From contig NZ_OX352320.1 in the NCBI RefSeq assembly GCF_947090785.1, positions 4,453,001 through 4,517,000 of the forward strand: a stretch of 64,000 nt of DNA. Reading direction: 5' to 3'. The DNA is from Rheinheimera sp. MM224. GTDB lineage: Bacteria > Pseudomonadota > Gammaproteobacteria > Enterobacterales > Alteromonadaceae. Position numbers and translations under genes: made by a program. How positions within the stretch are numbered: the first letter of the stretch is position 1; each line of letters starts with the position of its first letter. The notes beneath the pieces were generated by a model. It was not told the origin of the DNA. It worked only from the letters and a program-made list of their open reading frames with translations, and searched no databases. Below are positions 50,285 to 55,642 of this stretch, piece by piece.

Positions 50285-50581
50285 TCAGGCAAATTCCAAC
50301 TGATAAGGCAACACCTGTAATTGTGCTTGTTGCTCACGCACCAGCCACAGATCGTAGGCGTTTTGTAACCGAAGCCAATGCTCAGCCGAAGGTTTGCTAA
50401 ATGCCAGTTCCAGACGCAGTGCCATTTCCGGTGTAATAGCGCCTCTGGCATTCAGTACTTTGGATAAGGTTTTACGGCTGATATTTAAATGCGCCGAAAC
50501 ATCAGTCACAGTTAAAGCCAAAGGCTCAATAATCAGCTCTTTCAGAATCTCACCAGGGTGAGCCGGGTTATGCATACTCAT
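50285..50581 (-). CDS. higA: HigA antitoxin
   Basis: A 98-residue Xre-type antitoxin. It starts MSMHNPAHPGEILKELIIEP, the family start, followed by a helix-turn-helix (about 25-60, LTVTDVSAHLNISRKTLSKV) and KPSAEHWLRLQNAYDLW. It binds and neutralises HigB and represses the operon. Its ATG overlaps the higB stop by one base (TAATG), and the toxin gene comes first, the order typical of higBA. Confidence 0.93.
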   Translation of the reverse strand: MSMHNPAHPGEILKELIIEPLALTVTDVSAHLNISRKTLSKVLNARGAITPEMALRLELAFSKPSAEHWLRLQNAYDLWLVREQQAQLQVLPYQLEFA

Positions 50582-50859
50582 TAGTGATAATCCTCGTAGT
50601 TAACAATTTCAGCATCCCGGCCAACAAATCTGAATGTGACGCGCCAATTTCCATTCACGGTGACAGACCAAATACCTTTCCGGTCACCCGAAAGTTCATG
50701 CAGCCGAAGGCCAGGCAGATCCATATCATCTATGGCTTCCGCCTGATCAAGGTTTGACAGGATAAGTCTCAGGCGATTCTGATGCTTGGCCTTTATGCCA
50801 GCCGTACTGCCTGTTTTATAGAAGCGCTCAAGACCTTTATGTTTAAAGTTCTTAATCAT
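50581..50859 (-). CDS. higB: HigB toxin (RelE-like mRNA endonuclease)
   Basis: 92 residues from ATG 50859, the usual HigB length and start (MIKNFKHKGLERFYKTGS). An upstream ATG at 50877 falls between the -35 and -10 boxes of the operon promoter and cannot be the start. Conserved blocks are LDQAEAIDDMDLPGLRLHEL and NWRVTFRF..AEIVNYEDYH. It cleaves mRNA at the ribosome. With the -10 box ending 6 nt before the ATG, the mRNA is probably leaderless or nearly so. Confidence 0.93.
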   Translation of the reverse strand: MIKNFKHKGLERFYKTGSTAGIKAKHQNRLRLILSNLDQAEAIDDMDLPGLRLHELSGDRKGIWSVTVNGNWRVTFRFVGRDAEIVNYEDYH

Positions 50860-50865
50860 GTCAAA

Positions 50866-50893
50866 ATTGTAACCCATGAGGTTACATTGTCAA
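50866..50893 (-). promoter_or_regulatory. higBA promoter with overlapping HigA operator
   Basis: On the minus strand TTGACA (50893-50888), 16 bp, TACAAT (50871-50866). A perfect dyad TGTAACC-CATGA-GGTTACA (50868-50886) covers the spacer and part of the -10 box, the expected place for HigA repression. Confidence 0.75.
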
Positions 50894-50930
50894 GATCGTG
50901 CAGCTGATCCCAAACAACTATCTCGCCACC

Positions 50931-50978
50931 GCGACAAATGTCGCAGATTTTGCTTGACCTTGCTGTGACATTTGTCGC
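50931..50978. promoter_or_regulatory. pair of BlaI-type operators
   Basis: GCGACA-AA-TGTCGC (50931-50944) and GTGACA-TT-TGTCGC (50965-50978), with centres 34 bp apart, before the blaI-like gene. The GACA..TGTC dyad has the shape of BlaI/MecI operators. A possible promoter is TTGCTG (50960) with TAAAAG (50983), 17-bp spacing; the second dyad lies across it. Confidence 0.7.
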
Positions 50979-51014
50979 ACTCTAAAAGCATAGTGAAATC
51001 ACAGACTCCATTTT

Positions 51015-51413
51015 ATGCACCAACCTACGGCCCCTGAGCTGGAAATTCTGAAATTATTGTGGTTAAAACAACCTCTGACTGCGCGTGAATTGCATGATGA
51101 GCTGGAGTCTGTATTGGGCTGGGGTTATTCTTCTACCCGCAAAACTCTGGAGCGTATGGGCGAAAAAGGTTTTGTCGCTTGTGAAACTTTGGGCAATAAA
51201 AATAGCTATAAAGCGCTACTGGATAAAATGCCAACGCTGGCAGCTTTTGCGCAGGATTTTGCCCGCAGGGTATTTGAGCTGAATGGTCCTTTGCCCGTGG
51301 CCATGTTTGCCAACAGCAAGCTGGTGAATGCCGATGAAATGGCTGATTTGGAAAAACTGCTGGCTGATTTAGCGCAGCAGCAAAAGGCTCCAATCAACAA
51401 TGGGGAGGCTTAA
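51015..51413 (+). CDS. BlaI/MecI-family repressor
   Basis: A 132-residue winged-helix repressor of the BlaI/MecI/CopY family: MHQPTAPELEILKLLWLKQP, LTARELHDELESVLGWGYSS then TRKTLERMGEKGFV. In known systems the repressor is cleaved after an M56 membrane protease is activated. The next gene encodes an M56 protein, separated by 1 nt. Two GACA-NN-TGTC dyads lie upstream, suggesting autorepression of the whole operon. The ribosome site is weak. Confidence 0.92.
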   Translation: MHQPTAPELEILKLLWLKQPLTARELHDELESVLGWGYSSTRKTLERMGEKGFVACETLGNKNSYKALLDKMPTLAAFAQDFARRVFELNGPLPVAMFANSKLVNADEMADLEKLLADLAQQQKAPINNGEA

Positions 51414-51414
51414 G

Positions 51415-52797
51415 ATGGCTGAACAATTGTTGTTGTCCTTGCTGCTTTGTAGCCTTTGGTCTGGTTTACTTTGGTTTTCCAGTCAGTTTTTGCTAAAGAA
51501 ATTCAGCGCTTTGCAGCATTGGCCCGCTTTGTATTGGTGTTTACTGGCTTTAAGTTTTTTACCTTTATTGCCTATGCCGGAGCTGTATCAGCACTGGACT
51601 GTACCTTCGGTATTACTGCTGGATACGGTCAGCTCGGTGCAAGCTTTAACGGCTCAGCCACTACACCCGTCTTTACTAGAACCTCCGATTGAGACCGCCT
51701 TTTACTGGCGTATGGCCTTGAGTTTGATTGCCATTATCAGCCTGTTATCGCTTTGGCGTTTAGTTAAACAATGGCAGCAGGTGCAGCGGCTGATCCAGCT
51801 GTCCGAACCTTTAGACAAGACTTTGCTGCTCAACAAAACACAACTGGAATGCTTACCCAGTCAATTTGAAATTCGCCAAACCCAGGCCGCTATTTCGCCT
51901 TTTGTTGCCGGCTGGAACCGCATGGTATTGGTGTTGCCCGCTTATATAGAAGATATGTCAGAGCAGCAGCGCCAGTTATTGCTCGATCACGAACTGGTGC
52001 ATTTACAACGACGCGACCCACAACAGCTGTTACTACTGAGGGTTCTGGTGGCTTTATGCTGGTTTAACCCGGTATTACGACGGATTGAACAGGCCTTTAT
52101 TCGCAGTATGGAATTGGCGGTAGACAAAGCTGTACTTCAAAAGCAGCCAGAGCAAGCGCTGTTGTACGGCCAAACCTTGCTTTGCAGCTTAAAGCAAAGT
52201 CAGGCAGAGCAGATGCCAGCGCTGATGCCGGGTTTTATTCAAAGCAATGCCAGCCAAAGTTTTTATCAGCAACGTTTGCAGCAGTTATTTCAGCCAGCTC
52301 CTGTGTTGTCCTTCTGGCAAAAATGGCGCGCTACAGCGGTTTTATGTAGCACTGCTTTGCTGCTGAATGTGGGCTGTGCTCAGCTTAGCTTCAGCTCGCC
52401 GCCACAAGAATGGGTATTACCGGTTGGCAAAGTGCCTATCAACTCTTTTTATGGTGAAAAACACCCGTTTCGCAAAAACCGCCCACACCAGGGGCTGGAT
52501 TTTGGTGCCAAACGTGGCGCTACTGTAAAAGCGGCGCAAAAAGGCAAAGTGCTGATAGCGGATGCCAAAAGCTTACATGACAGATATGGCAAAGCTGTGT
52601 TGATTGACCATGGCCATGGTTATCAAACGCTGTATGCACATCTGGATGATTTTTATATAAAACCAGGCCAGACAGTAGAACCGGGCCAGCCTATAGGCAA
52701 AGTGGGATCGACAGGCCGGGTGACAGGGCCACATTTACATTTTGAATTGCTGGTCGAAGGCAAACAGCAAGATCCAACTCCTTATTTAAAGTTGTAG
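51415..52797 (+). CDS. M56 (BlaR1-type) membrane protease fused to M23 peptidoglycan endopeptidase
   Basis: 460 residues from ATG 51415 (GGGGAGG upstream). Residues 1-320 form the M56 part: membrane segments near 5-30, 38-53, 98-115, 205-218 and 303-320, zinc motif HELVH (192-196) and SMELAVDKAV (Glu233). BlaR1 has a penicillin-binding sensor after the last membrane segment; here there is instead an M23/LytM domain (about 333-460) with all zinc ligands (HQGLD 358-362, His409 in YAHLD, HLH 440-442). It could sense or cut peptidoglycan and signal to the BlaI-like repressor. The fusion is seen directly; the signalling role is inference. Confidence 0.9.
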   Translation: MAEQLLLSLLLCSLWSGLLWFSSQFLLKKFSALQHWPALYWCLLALSFLPLLPMPELYQHWTVPSVLLLDTVSSVQALTAQPLHPSLLEPPIETAFYWRMALSLIAIISLLSLWRLVKQWQQVQRLIQLSEPLDKTLLLNKTQLECLPSQFEIRQTQAAISPFVAGWNRMVLVLPAYIEDMSEQQRQLLLDHELVHLQRRDPQQLLLLRVLVALCWFNPVLRRIEQAFIRSMELAVDKAVLQKQPEQALLYGQTLLCSLKQSQAEQMPALMPGFIQSNASQSFYQQRLQQLFQPAPVLSFWQKWRATAVLCSTALLLNVGCAQLSFSSPPQEWVLPVGKVPINSFYGEKHPFRKNRPHQGLDFGAKRGATVKAAQKGKVLIADAKSLHDRYGKAVLIDHGHGYQTLYAHLDDFYIKPGQTVEPGQPIGKVGSTGRVTGPHLHFELLVEGKQQDPTPYLKL

Positions 52798-52813
52798 CAG
52801 TTAAGGCAACCTG

Positions 52814-53941
52814 ATGAAATTATTTATAAAAACCACCTTATGCAGCCTCTTGCTCTGCGCTTTTTCAACCTCAGCACAGTTTCAGCAAACCGAACTGCTG
52901 CAAGGGCTGGATTTGCAGTTTAGGGTGCAGCTAAACAAAGCCAAAGTGCCAGGCGGTGCTTATGCGGTAGTGCGTGGTAACCAGATTATTGCCACTGGCA
53001 GTTATGGTGTGCGTGCTATGGGCAAGCCAGAAAAAATTGATGCCGATACCGTATTCCGGCTGGCCTCAGTATCAAAAACTTTTACCGGTGGCATCAGCGT
53101 ATTAGCCGCTCAGCAAGGCAAAGTGAATTTAGACTTGCCGTTGATTAACTATGTACCTGAATTTAAATTAAAAACATCTGCTGCCACCCGGCAAATTAAG
53201 GTGGATCAGGTACTCAGCCAAAGCACGGGTTTAATGCCGCATGCTTATGAAAACCTGTTGGAAGCTAAACAAACTCCAGAACAAATTTTGCCAAAGTTTC
53301 AAGAGCTGGCGCCAGGCTGTAAACCTGGTACTTGTTACAGCTATCAGAATATTGTGTTTGCTTTACTGGATCAGGTTTTAAGCCGTGGCACCGGAAAAGC
53401 TTATGAAGAGTTACTGCCTGAACGTATTTTTAAACCTCTGCAAATGAGCACAGCCTCTGTGGGTTATGCACCATTTTTAGCCACTGAAAACAAAGCCATG
53501 CCACATAAAAGAGGCGGTAAAGGCTGGCGTCCGGTCAAAATAGACCCGAATTTTTATTGGGTCAATCCAGCCGCAGGAGTCAATGCCAGCGTCAATGATA
53601 TGGCCAAATACCTGATAGCCATGCTGGGTCATAAGCCTGGTGTATTCAGCGCTGAAGCTTTGGCGCAGTTGCAACAACCTATGGTGAGGTTACGAGGCAA
53701 ACCTCGCTGGCCGGTTTGGCAACAATTCAAGCAGGTATCCAGCTGGTATGGCCGTGGCTGGCGGGTGATCCAATACGATGAAAACAAACTGTTTTATCAC
53801 GGTGGTGTAGTGGACGGTTTCCGGCCTTATATCGCTTATTCACCAGAGCAGGACATAGGTTTAGTACTGCTGACCAATGCCGAAGCTGATATCACAGGCG
53901 ATTTAGCCAAATGGTTCTGGCAACAGGTGTTAAGTTCATAA
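52814..53941 (+). CDS. class C beta-lactamase-like serine hydrolase, exported
   Basis: A 375-residue protein with a signal peptide ending STSA (about 21). The penicillin-binding fold motifs are SVSK (Ser85, Lys88), YQN (Tyr177-Asn179) and HGG (329-331). This set is shared by AmpC lactamases, EstB-type esterases and DD-peptidases; HGG in place of KTG is more usual for the esterase/peptidase side. It lies 16 nt after the M56-M23 gene and is probably controlled by the BlaI-like repressor. True beta-lactamase activity is uncertain; peptidoglycan remodelling is a reasonable alternative. Confidence 0.85.
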   Translation: MKLFIKTTLCSLLLCAFSTSAQFQQTELLQGLDLQFRVQLNKAKVPGGAYAVVRGNQIIATGSYGVRAMGKPEKIDADTVFRLASVSKTFTGGISVLAAQQGKVNLDLPLINYVPEFKLKTSAATRQIKVDQVLSQSTGLMPHAYENLLEAKQTPEQILPKFQELAPGCKPGTCYSYQNIVFALLDQVLSRGTGKAYEELLPERIFKPLQMSTASVGYAPFLATENKAMPHKRGGKGWRPVKIDPNFYWVNPAAGVNASVNDMAKYLIAMLGHKPGVFSAEALAQLQQPMVRLRGKPRWPVWQQFKQVSSWYGRGWRVIQYDENKLFYHGGVVDGFRPYIAYSPEQDIGLVLLTNAEADITGDLAKWFWQQVLSS

Positions 53942-53957
53942 TTCATAAGGATTCGAT

Positions 53958-54857
53958 ATGAGATGGTTTATCGTTTTGTGTGCCTTGTTCAGCCTGAACT
54001 TATCGGCAGAAGAACAATTCCCGGCCTGGGAATTACCTAATACTCAGGTGCATCAGTTACCAGCGCAAAGCAATGGCCGCCATTACGAAGTTTGGGTTGA
54101 ACTGCCACCTTCCTATGGCAAAACAGAGAAGAAATTTCCGGTACTTTTTGTGTCTGATGCCAATTACGCTTTTCCGCTGATCCGTAGTATCCGCAACCGT
54201 TTGGGCGCTGGAGGTCAGAATATTGAAGACTTTATCATTGTAGGTTTGTCCTACGCCCAGGGAGATAACCCAACAGATAGCCGCAGCCTGGATTACACCC
54301 CAACTAATGTCTTAAAGCGGGCAAAGAAACCGGGTGAAAATTTCAGTGCTAAAGCTTATGGCGGCGCGGCTTTATACGCCCAGTATCTGCAACAACAAGT
54401 GATCCCTTTTGTATTAAATAACTATCAGGTAGACCCCAAACGTAAGCTTTTTGTTGGTCATTCGTATGGTGGCCTATTAGGTGCACAAATCCTGCTGACC
54501 CAGCCCGATACTTTTGATACCTATATTCTAAGCAGCCCATCCTTGTGGTTTGACGATAAAACAATGTTCAAGCTGGAGCAGCAGTACGCGGCCACACACA
54601 AAGATTTAACAGCCAGGGTGCAGCTCTATGCCGCTGAATTTGAACAGATAAAACCAGGGCCACGTTATGCCAACAGAGTGAGCATAGTGGATGACATGCT
54701 ATTGTTTGAGAAAACCCTGAAAAGCCGTAATTACTCAGGCTTACAGATCCAAAGCCAGATTATTGCCGACGAAGATCACCTCTCTGTGTTTCCGTCTATG
54801 ATAAGCCGGGCTCTGGTTACACTCTTACCAGGCTATGGCCCTTATACGCCGGGCTAA
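53958..54857 (+). CDS. exported alpha/beta hydrolase, IroE/BesA-like esterase
   Basis: A 299-residue alpha/beta-hydrolase with a signal peptide of about 17 residues. The nucleophile elbow is FVGHSYGGLLGA and the catalytic His is probably in DEDHLSVFPSM. PVLFVSDANYAFPLIRS and SSPSLWFDDKTMF match the esterase-D / siderophore-esterase (IroE, BesA) group, some members of which hydrolyse peptides or cyclic esters. AAGGA precedes the ATG. It is last gene of the four-gene BlaI-type operon; its role there is unknown. Confidence 0.85.
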   Translation: MRWFIVLCALFSLNLSAEEQFPAWELPNTQVHQLPAQSNGRHYEVWVELPPSYGKTEKKFPVLFVSDANYAFPLIRSIRNRLGAGGQNIEDFIIVGLSYAQGDNPTDSRSLDYTPTNVLKRAKKPGENFSAKAYGGAALYAQYLQQQVIPFVLNNYQVDPKRKLFVGHSYGGLLGAQILLTQPDTFDTYILSSPSLWFDDKTMFKLEQQYAATHKDLTARVQLYAAEFEQIKPGPRYANRVSIVDDMLLFEKTLKSRNYSGLQIQSQIIADEDHLSVFPSMISRALVTLLPGYGPYTPG

Positions 54858-54918: not shown

Positions 54919-55347
54919 ATGGAAATTCTGGATTTATCCGCTTTAGTTTTGGCTTGCAAGTCCTTGTCTGAAGCAGTGCAGGACAGCAAAAATCAGAGTT
55001 TTATCGCCAGCTTATCTGACAGTCAGAAGCGTCTGGTGGTGGCTGGTGTGATCCAAAACTTTGAGTTCTGTTATGAGCTTTGCGTCAAAATGATTAAACG
55101 TCAGTTGGAACAAGATGCGGCGGCATTAAGCGATATAGACCAATACTCTTTTCGGGATTTAATTCGTACCGCTATGGAAAAAGGTTTGCTGGACGACCCA
55201 GAGCTTTGGTTTGAGTTCAGGCGGCAACGCAATATTACGTCTCACACTTATGATCAGGACAAAGCTTCTGTTGTGTATCAGGCCGCTTTGAGTTTTGAAA
55301 CGCAGGCTTTATCTGTGCTAAAGCGGTTGCAGCAACGTAATGCTTAA
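54919..55347 (+). CDS. HEPN-domain protein of the HI0074 / HepT type
   Basis: A 142-residue all-helical protein of the nucleotidyltransferase-substrate-binding family. The HEPN ribonuclease motif Rx4H is present (Arg104-His109, RNITSH). LVVAGVIQNFEFCYELCVKMIKRQL is the family dimer block. With the next gene it forms a HEPN/MNT pair, a class that includes toxin-antitoxin systems in which the MNT enzyme AMPylates the HEPN toxin. The stop overlaps the next gene by 8 nt. Confidence 0.88.
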   Translation: MEILDLSALVLACKSLSEAVQDSKNQSFIASLSDSQKRLVVAGVIQNFEFCYELCVKMIKRQLEQDAAALSDIDQYSFRDLIRTAMEKGLLDDPELWFEFRRQRNITSHTYDQDKASVVYQAALSFETQALSVLKRLQQRNA

Positions 55348-55642
55348 TCTGTCGGATGCTCAGCTGTCTCTATTGCAGCATCTGCTTAGCAGCCATGTAC
55401 CTGGTGTTAGGGTTTGGGCTTTTGGTTCCAGAGTCAAAGGTACGGCTAAAGCATGGTCTGATTTAGATTTGGTTTTGGTCACTAAACAAGCTTTGCCACC
55501 AAACCAGGTCTTTAAGCTACAGGATGCACTAGAAGAGTCTGATTTACCTATTAAGGTGGATCTGGTGGACTGGCATGATATTTCGGCTGAGTTTCAACAA
55601 CTGATCCTTAAAAATTATCAGGTTATCCAACAAGGTGAATGA
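55340..55642 (+). CDS. minimal nucleotidyltransferase (MNT) antitoxin-type protein
   Basis: A 100-residue minimal nucleotidyltransferase: WAFGSRVKGTAKAWSDLDLVLV carries GSR and the SDxD metal site, and IKVDLVDWHDIS holds the third acidic residue. It probably modifies the HEPN partner encoded immediately upstream, with which it overlaps. The next gene overlaps its stop (ATGATG), so three genes may be read together, although the third is unrelated in function. Confidence 0.9.
   Translation: MLNLSDAQLSLLQHLLSSHVPGVRVWAFGSRVKGTAKAWSDLDLVLVTKQALPPNQVFKLQDALEESDLPIKVDLVDWHDISAEFQQLILKNYQVIQQGE

Follow-up and report, generated by a model that had tools for sequence, protein, structure and literature searches.

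We describe a four-gene locus of Rheinheimera sp. MM224 (genome of 4.64 Mb, one contig) at positions 50930-54857 of the window, i.e., the whole 64,000-nucleotide stretch of DNA that was analysed. Its second gene encodes an M56 membrane protease fused to an M23 peptidoglycan endopeptidase domain, and it follows the gene of a BlaI/MecI-family repressor. BlaR1 is the textbook case of a one-protein membrane sensor that destroys a repressor, and its signalling was worked out with a beta-lactam sensor. Sequence comparison makes it rather probable, in our judgement, that the fusion is a BlaR1-type antirepressor which uses the M23 domain as its sensor and perhaps also as an effector. The M56+M23 architecture is already in print; a BlaR1/BlaI variant with M23 in the sensor slot is new, real and conserved. 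A review of M23 peptidases names M56 among their rare partners and reports no demonstrated role of M56 in peptidoglycan cleavage (PMC9662197). Among the matches listed in a search of open-licence PMC literature, there was no account of the function of any M56-M23 protein.

The receptor and its operon

The four genes are intact and all lie on the + strand, in the order given by a preliminary description made from the sequence alone. The features are as follows:

50930..50945, no strand assigned: operator O1, CGCGACAAATGTCGCA, an inverted repeat with one mismatch to the consensus TGCGACAnnTGTCGCA
50954..50959, + strand: proposed -35 element TTGACC, with O2 just after it, read from the sequence and from relatives' promoters
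50964..50979, no strand assigned: operator O2, TGTGACATTTGTCGCA, an inverted repeat whose start lies 34 bp after that of O1
51015..51413, + strand: BlaI/MecI-family repressor, 132 aa (PF03965, 74.8 bits, cut-off 22.6)
51400..52797, + strand: M56-M23 fusion, 465 aa in one frame (PF05569 M56 over residues 31-272, 93 bits; PF01551 M23 over residues 362-459, 113.4 bits)
52814..53941, + strand: S12-type serine hydrolase, 375 aa, with a signal-peptide-like N-terminus (PF00144, 205.3 bits, and motifs)
53958..54857, + strand: IroE-like esterase, 299 aa, with a signal-peptide-like N-terminus (PF00756, 54.5 bits, and a GHSYG motif)

Judged from Pfam, the alignment with BlaR1 (8exp) and the invariant metal sites, the M56 protease domain and membrane helices occupy about residues 1-331 of the fusion and the M23 domain about residues 341-465, with a short linker between them. 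The preliminary description had reported a BlaI gene followed by an M56 protease (HELVH) with a complete M23 C-terminus, then a serine hydrolase with SVSK/YQN/HGG and a GHSYGG esterase. Pfam scores and located motifs confirm each of these: HELVH at residues 197-201, HQGLD at 363-367, YAHLD with H414 and HLH at 445-447 in the fusion; SVSK from 85, YQN from 177 and HGG from 329 in the hydrolase; and GHSYG from 167 in the esterase. A family and pattern search of the genome gave one BlaI and, for M56, one protein above the family cut-off plus two weak matches under it.

Conservation was read from an alignment of 30 fusions (the window protein, 9 close relatives and 20 further proteins). M56 residues H197, E198, H201, D206, E238, D242, Y256 and R292 are invariant in all 30, and the gluzincin site of a BlaR1-type M56 protease (HEXXH ... 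EXXXD with supporting Asp, Tyr and Arg) is thus present. F279, at the hydrophobic P1' position of the autocleavage loop, aligns with SHSF of BlaR1 and is kept in 27 of the 30. The BlaR1 residues with reported roles, H201, E202, H205, D210, E242, D246, Y261, F284 and R294 (PMC9834060, in excerpt), correspond in that order to H197, E198, H201, D206, E238, D242, Y256, F279 and R292 of the fusion. A profile of 15 M56 parts finds the solved BlaR1 structure 8exp (E 9.9e-28), covering BlaR1 residues 2-329, and with a full-fusion profile the BlaR1 match extends as far as position 351 of the profile, close to the point at which M23 matches set in.

Pfam finds no penicillin sensor domain (PF00905) in the fusion; M23 is in that place. 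The preliminary description had claimed this substitution, and the claim is upheld by the M56 alignment, which runs with BlaR1 to the last membrane helix, and by an M56 parallel in genome G927 (below). The fusion scores 46.5 bits with the blaR1_generic model (cut-off 400), so it is not BlaR1 proper by that measure. The loop before transmembrane helix 3 (TM3; residues ~60-100 of the window protein) carries a His-Pro pair, H89-P90, in Rheinheimera-type fusions that is missing from distant ones; this loop could possibly act as a plug of the M23 site, in the way EL1 plugs the sensor of BlaR1.

The repressor profile matches the MecI/BlaI structures 1okr and 1sd4. BlaI Phe98 lines up with the Phe in NFVEKE of MecI, and 22 of 23 BlaI rows retain it (Leu in L081); the P1' Phe is described as almost invariant in BlaI (PMC9834060, in excerpt). 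Conservation of the catalytic residues, the autocleavage Phe and the BlaI Phe together indicates that the chemistry of repressor cleavage has probably been kept.

The metal and catalytic residues of the M23 domain (HXXXD, H, HXH: H363, D367, H414, H445 and H447) are invariant in 30/30 fusions. Its best NCBIfam matches are Pgp3, ShyA/ShyC and MepM, all far below their curated cut-offs, and Pfam finds no LysM or other extra domain in the window fusion. The tether after the fourth membrane helix (TM4) is ~10-30 residues long. An anchored M23 domain would therefore probably contact newly made wall or soluble fragments and not the sacculus as a whole, except if it is released in the way reported for the BlaR1 sensor (PMC9834060). 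One fusion, at L124:5707-8058, is extended at its C-terminus by ~300 residues without a Pfam match.

Linkage to the repressor, part of the preliminary description, extends well beyond this genome: blaI lies immediately upstream of the fusion in all 37 relatives examined (29 + 6 + 2 loci, with reading frames called mechanically). A PF00144 hydrolase follows the fusion in all nine close relatives (L004-L012) and in L063 and L073-L079, and an esterase gene lies within the operon in five of those nine and in L062, L063, L064 and L078. Elsewhere, genes in the same direction downstream encode SLT-LysM transglycosylases (L064, after the esterase, and L065) or polysaccharide deacetylases (L072 and L081).

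The nearest solved structures to the serine hydrolase are Flp, IS11, AmpC and the ClbP peptidase. Class C beta-lactamases have KTG; the hydrolase has HGG and reaches 112.1 bits where the curated class C cut-off is 415, so it does not qualify as one. These values bear on the idea of ordinary beta-lactam induction by another route, in which the fusion would answer inhibition of penicillin-binding proteins as BlaR1 does and the S12 hydrolase would be a resistance enzyme. Membership of the BlaI family fits such a system, as does the finding that a wall dipeptide destabilises the BlaI-DNA complex in B. licheniformis (PMC3305447, in excerpt), which more generally gives wall signals to BlaI a precedent. 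Given a fusion in which Pfam finds no penicillin-binding domain and a hydrolase so far from class C, we consider this route very unlikely.

The preliminary description had also proposed that the system switches on wall-active hydrolases, and this is supported in part. The hydrolases appear to be exported, and operator pairs precede esterase and M1 peptidase genes elsewhere (below). Wall action of the esterase, whose nearest solved structures are BES (2qm0) and siderophore esterases, stays conjectural, and so does the description's idea that M23 reads the state of peptidoglycan directly.

Two gene pairs flank the locus. A HigB-like toxin (PF05015) and a helix-turn-helix antitoxin, at 50285-50877 on the - strand, lie directly upstream of the operator, and matches to them adjoin the locus in L008 and L011 among L004-L012. 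A nucleotidyltransferase substrate-binding protein and a nucleotidyltransferase, at 54919-55642, lie between the esterase and a DUF4920 gene and recur in three of the nine close relatives (L004, L007 and L010); we take this pair to be toxin-antitoxin-like.

Operators and operator-bearing genes

The operator consensus TGCGACAnnTGTCGCA stands upstream of blaI, often in two copies spaced 33-34 bp apart. A form of this palindrome was found before blaI in 38 of 38 loci, the window included, in a non-blind search that allowed core variants. The preliminary description did not mention the tandem operator. In L072 the operator, TGCTACATTTGTAGCA, has the TACA-nn-TGTA form, which is the BlaI/MecI (staphylococcal) operator form. 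A TACA-nn-TGTA palindrome with a half-variant also lies upstream of an M56 protein at L183:1026-1062, with no blaI match within the fetched stretch.

With at most one mismatch, O1 and O2 are the only sites in the MM224 genome. At the same threshold, the 38 carrier genomes hold 100 operator sites vs 24 for the reversed pattern, and 12 non-carriers hold 7 vs 9. Among the 295 order genomes, 4 have a strict operator pair; each of these carries the fusion and has the pair at blaI, whereas the remaining carriers there show a single site or a diverged one.

Promoter context can be read in several relatives. In L066, L068, L069 and L070, TTGACA or TTGACG is separated by 17-18 nt from a -10-like hexamer and the operator lies within this spacer; L067 has a -35 element with a weak -10. 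A consensus promoter scan of the window did not report TTGACC and gave GTGACA-18-CATAGT at 50965-50994 instead; promoter-like hits in that stretch number 3 vs 6.8 in shuffles, i.e., fewer than in shuffled sequence.

A second operator pair lies elsewhere in the genome in six of the 38 carriers, five times before a PF00756 esterase and once before an M1 peptidase. G298 and G301 have no esterase in the blaI operon, and there the pair lies ~35 bp before an esterase that is 76% identical to the window's (L162 and L159). G300, G308 and G312 have it ~175-195 bp before a second esterase of 32% identity (L158, L160 and L161), and in G273 it precedes the M1 peptidase (L170). G568 belongs to another order of the class; there an M1 peptidase sharing 56% identity with the G273 enzyme, and after it an esterase, are divergent from blaI (L080). 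Esterase and M1 peptidase genes thus recur, and chance hardly explains why the esterase keeps its operator pair where its gene is outside the operon.

Single sites are less informative. Ten single remote sites in other genomes (L163, L165-L169 and L171-L174) were considered as regulon members and set aside as probably due to chance: nine are inside called frames, and L167 is intergenic, before a 75-aa frame. Further single sites fall outside that ten: G255 (C32:47906), G283 (2), G096 (3), G165, G302, G313, G052, G663 (2), G902 (2), G934, G1002 (2), G300 (C71:107852), G311 (C140 and C189) and G014 (C1:2582915). A wider regulon was not found in the MM224 genome by searching for TGCGACAAATGTCGCA with at most three mismatches, which gave 18 + 20 hits on the two strands vs 27 + 25 for the reversed control; these hits are background. 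Two sites in that genome have two mismatches. One (L084) is inside reading frames; the other (L085, C1:1390655-1390670) has no second site and stands ~30 bp ahead of what may be the ATG of a small exported protein.

The kinds of genes that bear operators suggest another explanation, namely a response to peptide or depsipeptide antibiotics, or nutrient or siderophore use, where the esterase (on a lactone), the S12 peptidase (on D-residues) and the M1 aminopeptidase would act on foreign molecules. The operator-bearing genes are esterase, S12 hydrolase and M1 peptidase, and the nearest solved structures of the esterase (BES and siderophore esterases) and some of those of the S12 enzyme (Flp and the ClbP peptidase) agree with it. 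The M23 domain itself and the transglycosylase and deacetylase genes of other lineages point instead to the wall, and we regard a foreign-molecule response as unlikely.

Distribution and probable exchange of the C-terminal domain

The closest named relatives are Rheinheimera species, with the R. faecalis fusion at 95%. Counting MM224 itself in each sample, fusions free of internal stops occur in 19 of 22 genus genomes, and matches spanning both M56 and M23 occur in at least 13 of 295 order genomes. The preliminary description had allowed that a sequencing error might have produced the single frame; uninterrupted fusions across the genus and matches spanning both domains in the order rule this out. 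With MM224 again counted, 3 of 369 genomes in the class sample pass E 1e-30, and fusions there number at least that many, since G326 has one too. Of 398 phylum-sample genomes, 14 reach E 1e-25, and 8 of these 14 are M56-M23 fusions (judged by match span or by later Pfam or tblastn results) while the other 6 match the M23 part only. Within the class, M56 of any kind is uncommon, being present in 15 of 274 genomes (E 1e-10).

G927 holds two systems: blaI with an M56-M23 fusion (L125), and blaI with an M56 protein that has a class D-like sensor (L164, 5086-9221). That sensor scores 277.3 bits, just below the cut-off of 280, and reads STFN at a position where we would expect STFK. Downstream in L164 are genes for a B3 metallo-beta-lactamase (332.8 bits, cut-off 240) and a class D beta-lactamase (257.5 bits, cut-off 250). 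The operator of this second blaI, TGCGACACCTGTCGCA, is a sequence also found at the first G927 blaI. In a tree of 35 M56 parts those of the two systems group as sisters (100/100), and they are mutual best BLAST matches in the set (42-43% over 306-336 residues). With a sister M56 carrying a class D-like sensor under the same operator, M23 looks like a swapped sensor module.

A wider set of M56 proteins agrees with this. Twenty M56 loci were newly fetched from the class sample; two (L189 and L202) are M23 fusions met before, and of the other 18 ten were scanned, eight short or cut ones being left out. Four of the ten have TonB_C, one has a transpeptidase domain and five have nothing recognised, and a BlaI-like match adjoins eight of the ten. 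Such varied C-termini beside BlaI make the M56 C-terminus look exchangeable, with M23 as one version. A single origin of the fusion was considered and finds no clear support: placing 21 fusions among the 35 rows of the M56 tree takes 4 label changes, and several deep forks are open. One row scored as a non-fusion (L195) runs to the edge of its stretch and could be a truncated fusion.

It is also conceivable that M23 is output and not sensor. The membrane and loop parts of M56 would then do the sensing, and derepression would raise the amount of a tethered endopeptidase, perhaps shed by signal peptidase. The intact M23 residues fit this account. So does operon structure: in L068, L069, L070, L071, L080 and L126 the next frame is convergent and the fusion is the last gene, so M23 may itself be the output. 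L080 additionally has an M1-esterase operon that runs divergently from the same upstream region, and G215 and G078 have no operator (at most one mismatch) other than the one at blaI. Signal peptidase is reported to cut the BlaR1 sensor off just after the last helix (PMC9834060, in excerpt), and TM4 of the window fusion ends in NVGCA-Q. (A lipoprotein reading of TM4, from LNVGC, was rejected: the Cys is present in 12 of 30 rows only, all close relatives.) Weighing the other way are the position of M23 in the sensor slot and the sister M56 proteins of G927, which carry M23 and a class D-like sensor, respectively. M. tuberculosis BlaR lacks an equivalent sensor domain and its sensing mode is described as unclear (PMC9834060, in excerpt), so sensing without a sensor domain is not an established precedent. 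Overall, we think a purely effector M23 doubtful.

Proposed mechanism and comparison with known systems

We therefore return to the sensor reading. At rest, BlaI dimers bound to the pair of GACA-nn-TGTC operators at the promoter would keep the operon silent; in some relatives BlaI would also repress remote genes with the same operator pair. The fusion is predicted to lie in the inner membrane, with the M56 site cytoplasmic and the M23 domain periplasmic. Envelope damage would change the occupancy of M23 by nascent peptidoglycan or wall fragments, and this change would pass through the last helix and a periplasmic loop to M56, which would cut BlaI before Phe98. The operon would then be expressed, giving more fusion (and so more M23) and more exported hydrolases, and this output may repair or remodel the envelope.

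The steps draw on different sources. The architecture, catalytic residues, operator, fusion linkage and operator-bearing genes were computed. Topology and BlaI cleavage are carried over from BlaR1 (PMC9834060, in excerpt). M23 activity, a peptidoglycan ligand, the direction of the signal and envelope repair or remodelling by the output are what we infer.

Several observations weigh against this scheme. The intact M23 site speaks for an enzyme no less than for a sensor. F279 is replaced by Ala in 3 of the 30 fusions (L063, L078 and L079). A four-helix layout with N-terminus and C-terminus both outside agrees with the profile alignment over BlaR1 2-329, but hydropathy recovers only TM1, TM3 and TM4 in the window fusion, missing TM2, and TM4 is sub-threshold in 12 of 30 rows. 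Some downstream genes are not wall-like: an AcrB-type efflux pump (L124, next to the extended fusion), a TonB receptor (L123), a pirin (L127) and, further downstream in L066, a PKD-domain trypsin-like protease. The G927 rows of the M56 tree (N_L164 and F_L125) are of unusual composition, a feature that can draw rows together in a tree, though BLAST also makes each the other's best match in the set. At the one-mismatch threshold, 32 of the 38 carriers, MM224 among them, have no remote operator pair, and esterase and M1 peptidase are not known wall enzymes.

A sensing role for M23 is supported by the sensor slot and by exchange with the class D-like sensor, and the roles of sensor and effector are compatible and can both hold. 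A more tentative version combines them: M23 might measure peptidoglycan by binding or cutting it, and derepression might make more endopeptidase, yielding a self-amplifying wall-remodelling switch, with class D and M23 domains exchanged in either direction on one M56 chassis. An intact wall hydrolase in the sensor slot, a sharp operator and few operator-bearing genes make this a Gram-negative system for studying wall sensing through M56, and one that bears on which came first, beta-lactam sensing or wall sensing.

One comparison is with staphylococcal BlaI-BlaR1/MecI-MecR1 (8exp-8ext, 1okr and 1sd4), which shares the repressor family, the M56 catalytic residues, the autocleavage Phe (27/30) and an operator built on ACA-nn-TGT. 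It differs in having a class D-like penicillin sensor where M23 is found here, and in its targets, which are blaZ and mecA rather than other hydrolase genes. Gene order differs too: blaI precedes the receptor gene here, whereas in staphylococci it is not ahead of it.

Pgp3, ShyA/ShyC and MepM share the complete M23 metal and catalytic residue set, but the window M23 is fused to M56, is far below their curated cut-offs and has no LysM or extra domain by Pfam. M56-TonB_C proteins (4 of the 10 scanned) likewise join M56 to a periplasmic C-terminus beside a BlaI-like gene; they have TonB_C in place of M23, and the BlaI matches beside them reach only 22-33% identity with the queries. Another counterpart is the L164 system of G927, which has the same operator, an M56 part sister to that genome's fusion and a BlaI ~51-57% identical to fusion-type BlaI queries, and which differs in its class D-like sensor and in the B3 and class D beta-lactamase genes downstream. 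These twin systems, with the same operator and sister M56 parts but different sensors, would allow the two sensors to be compared.

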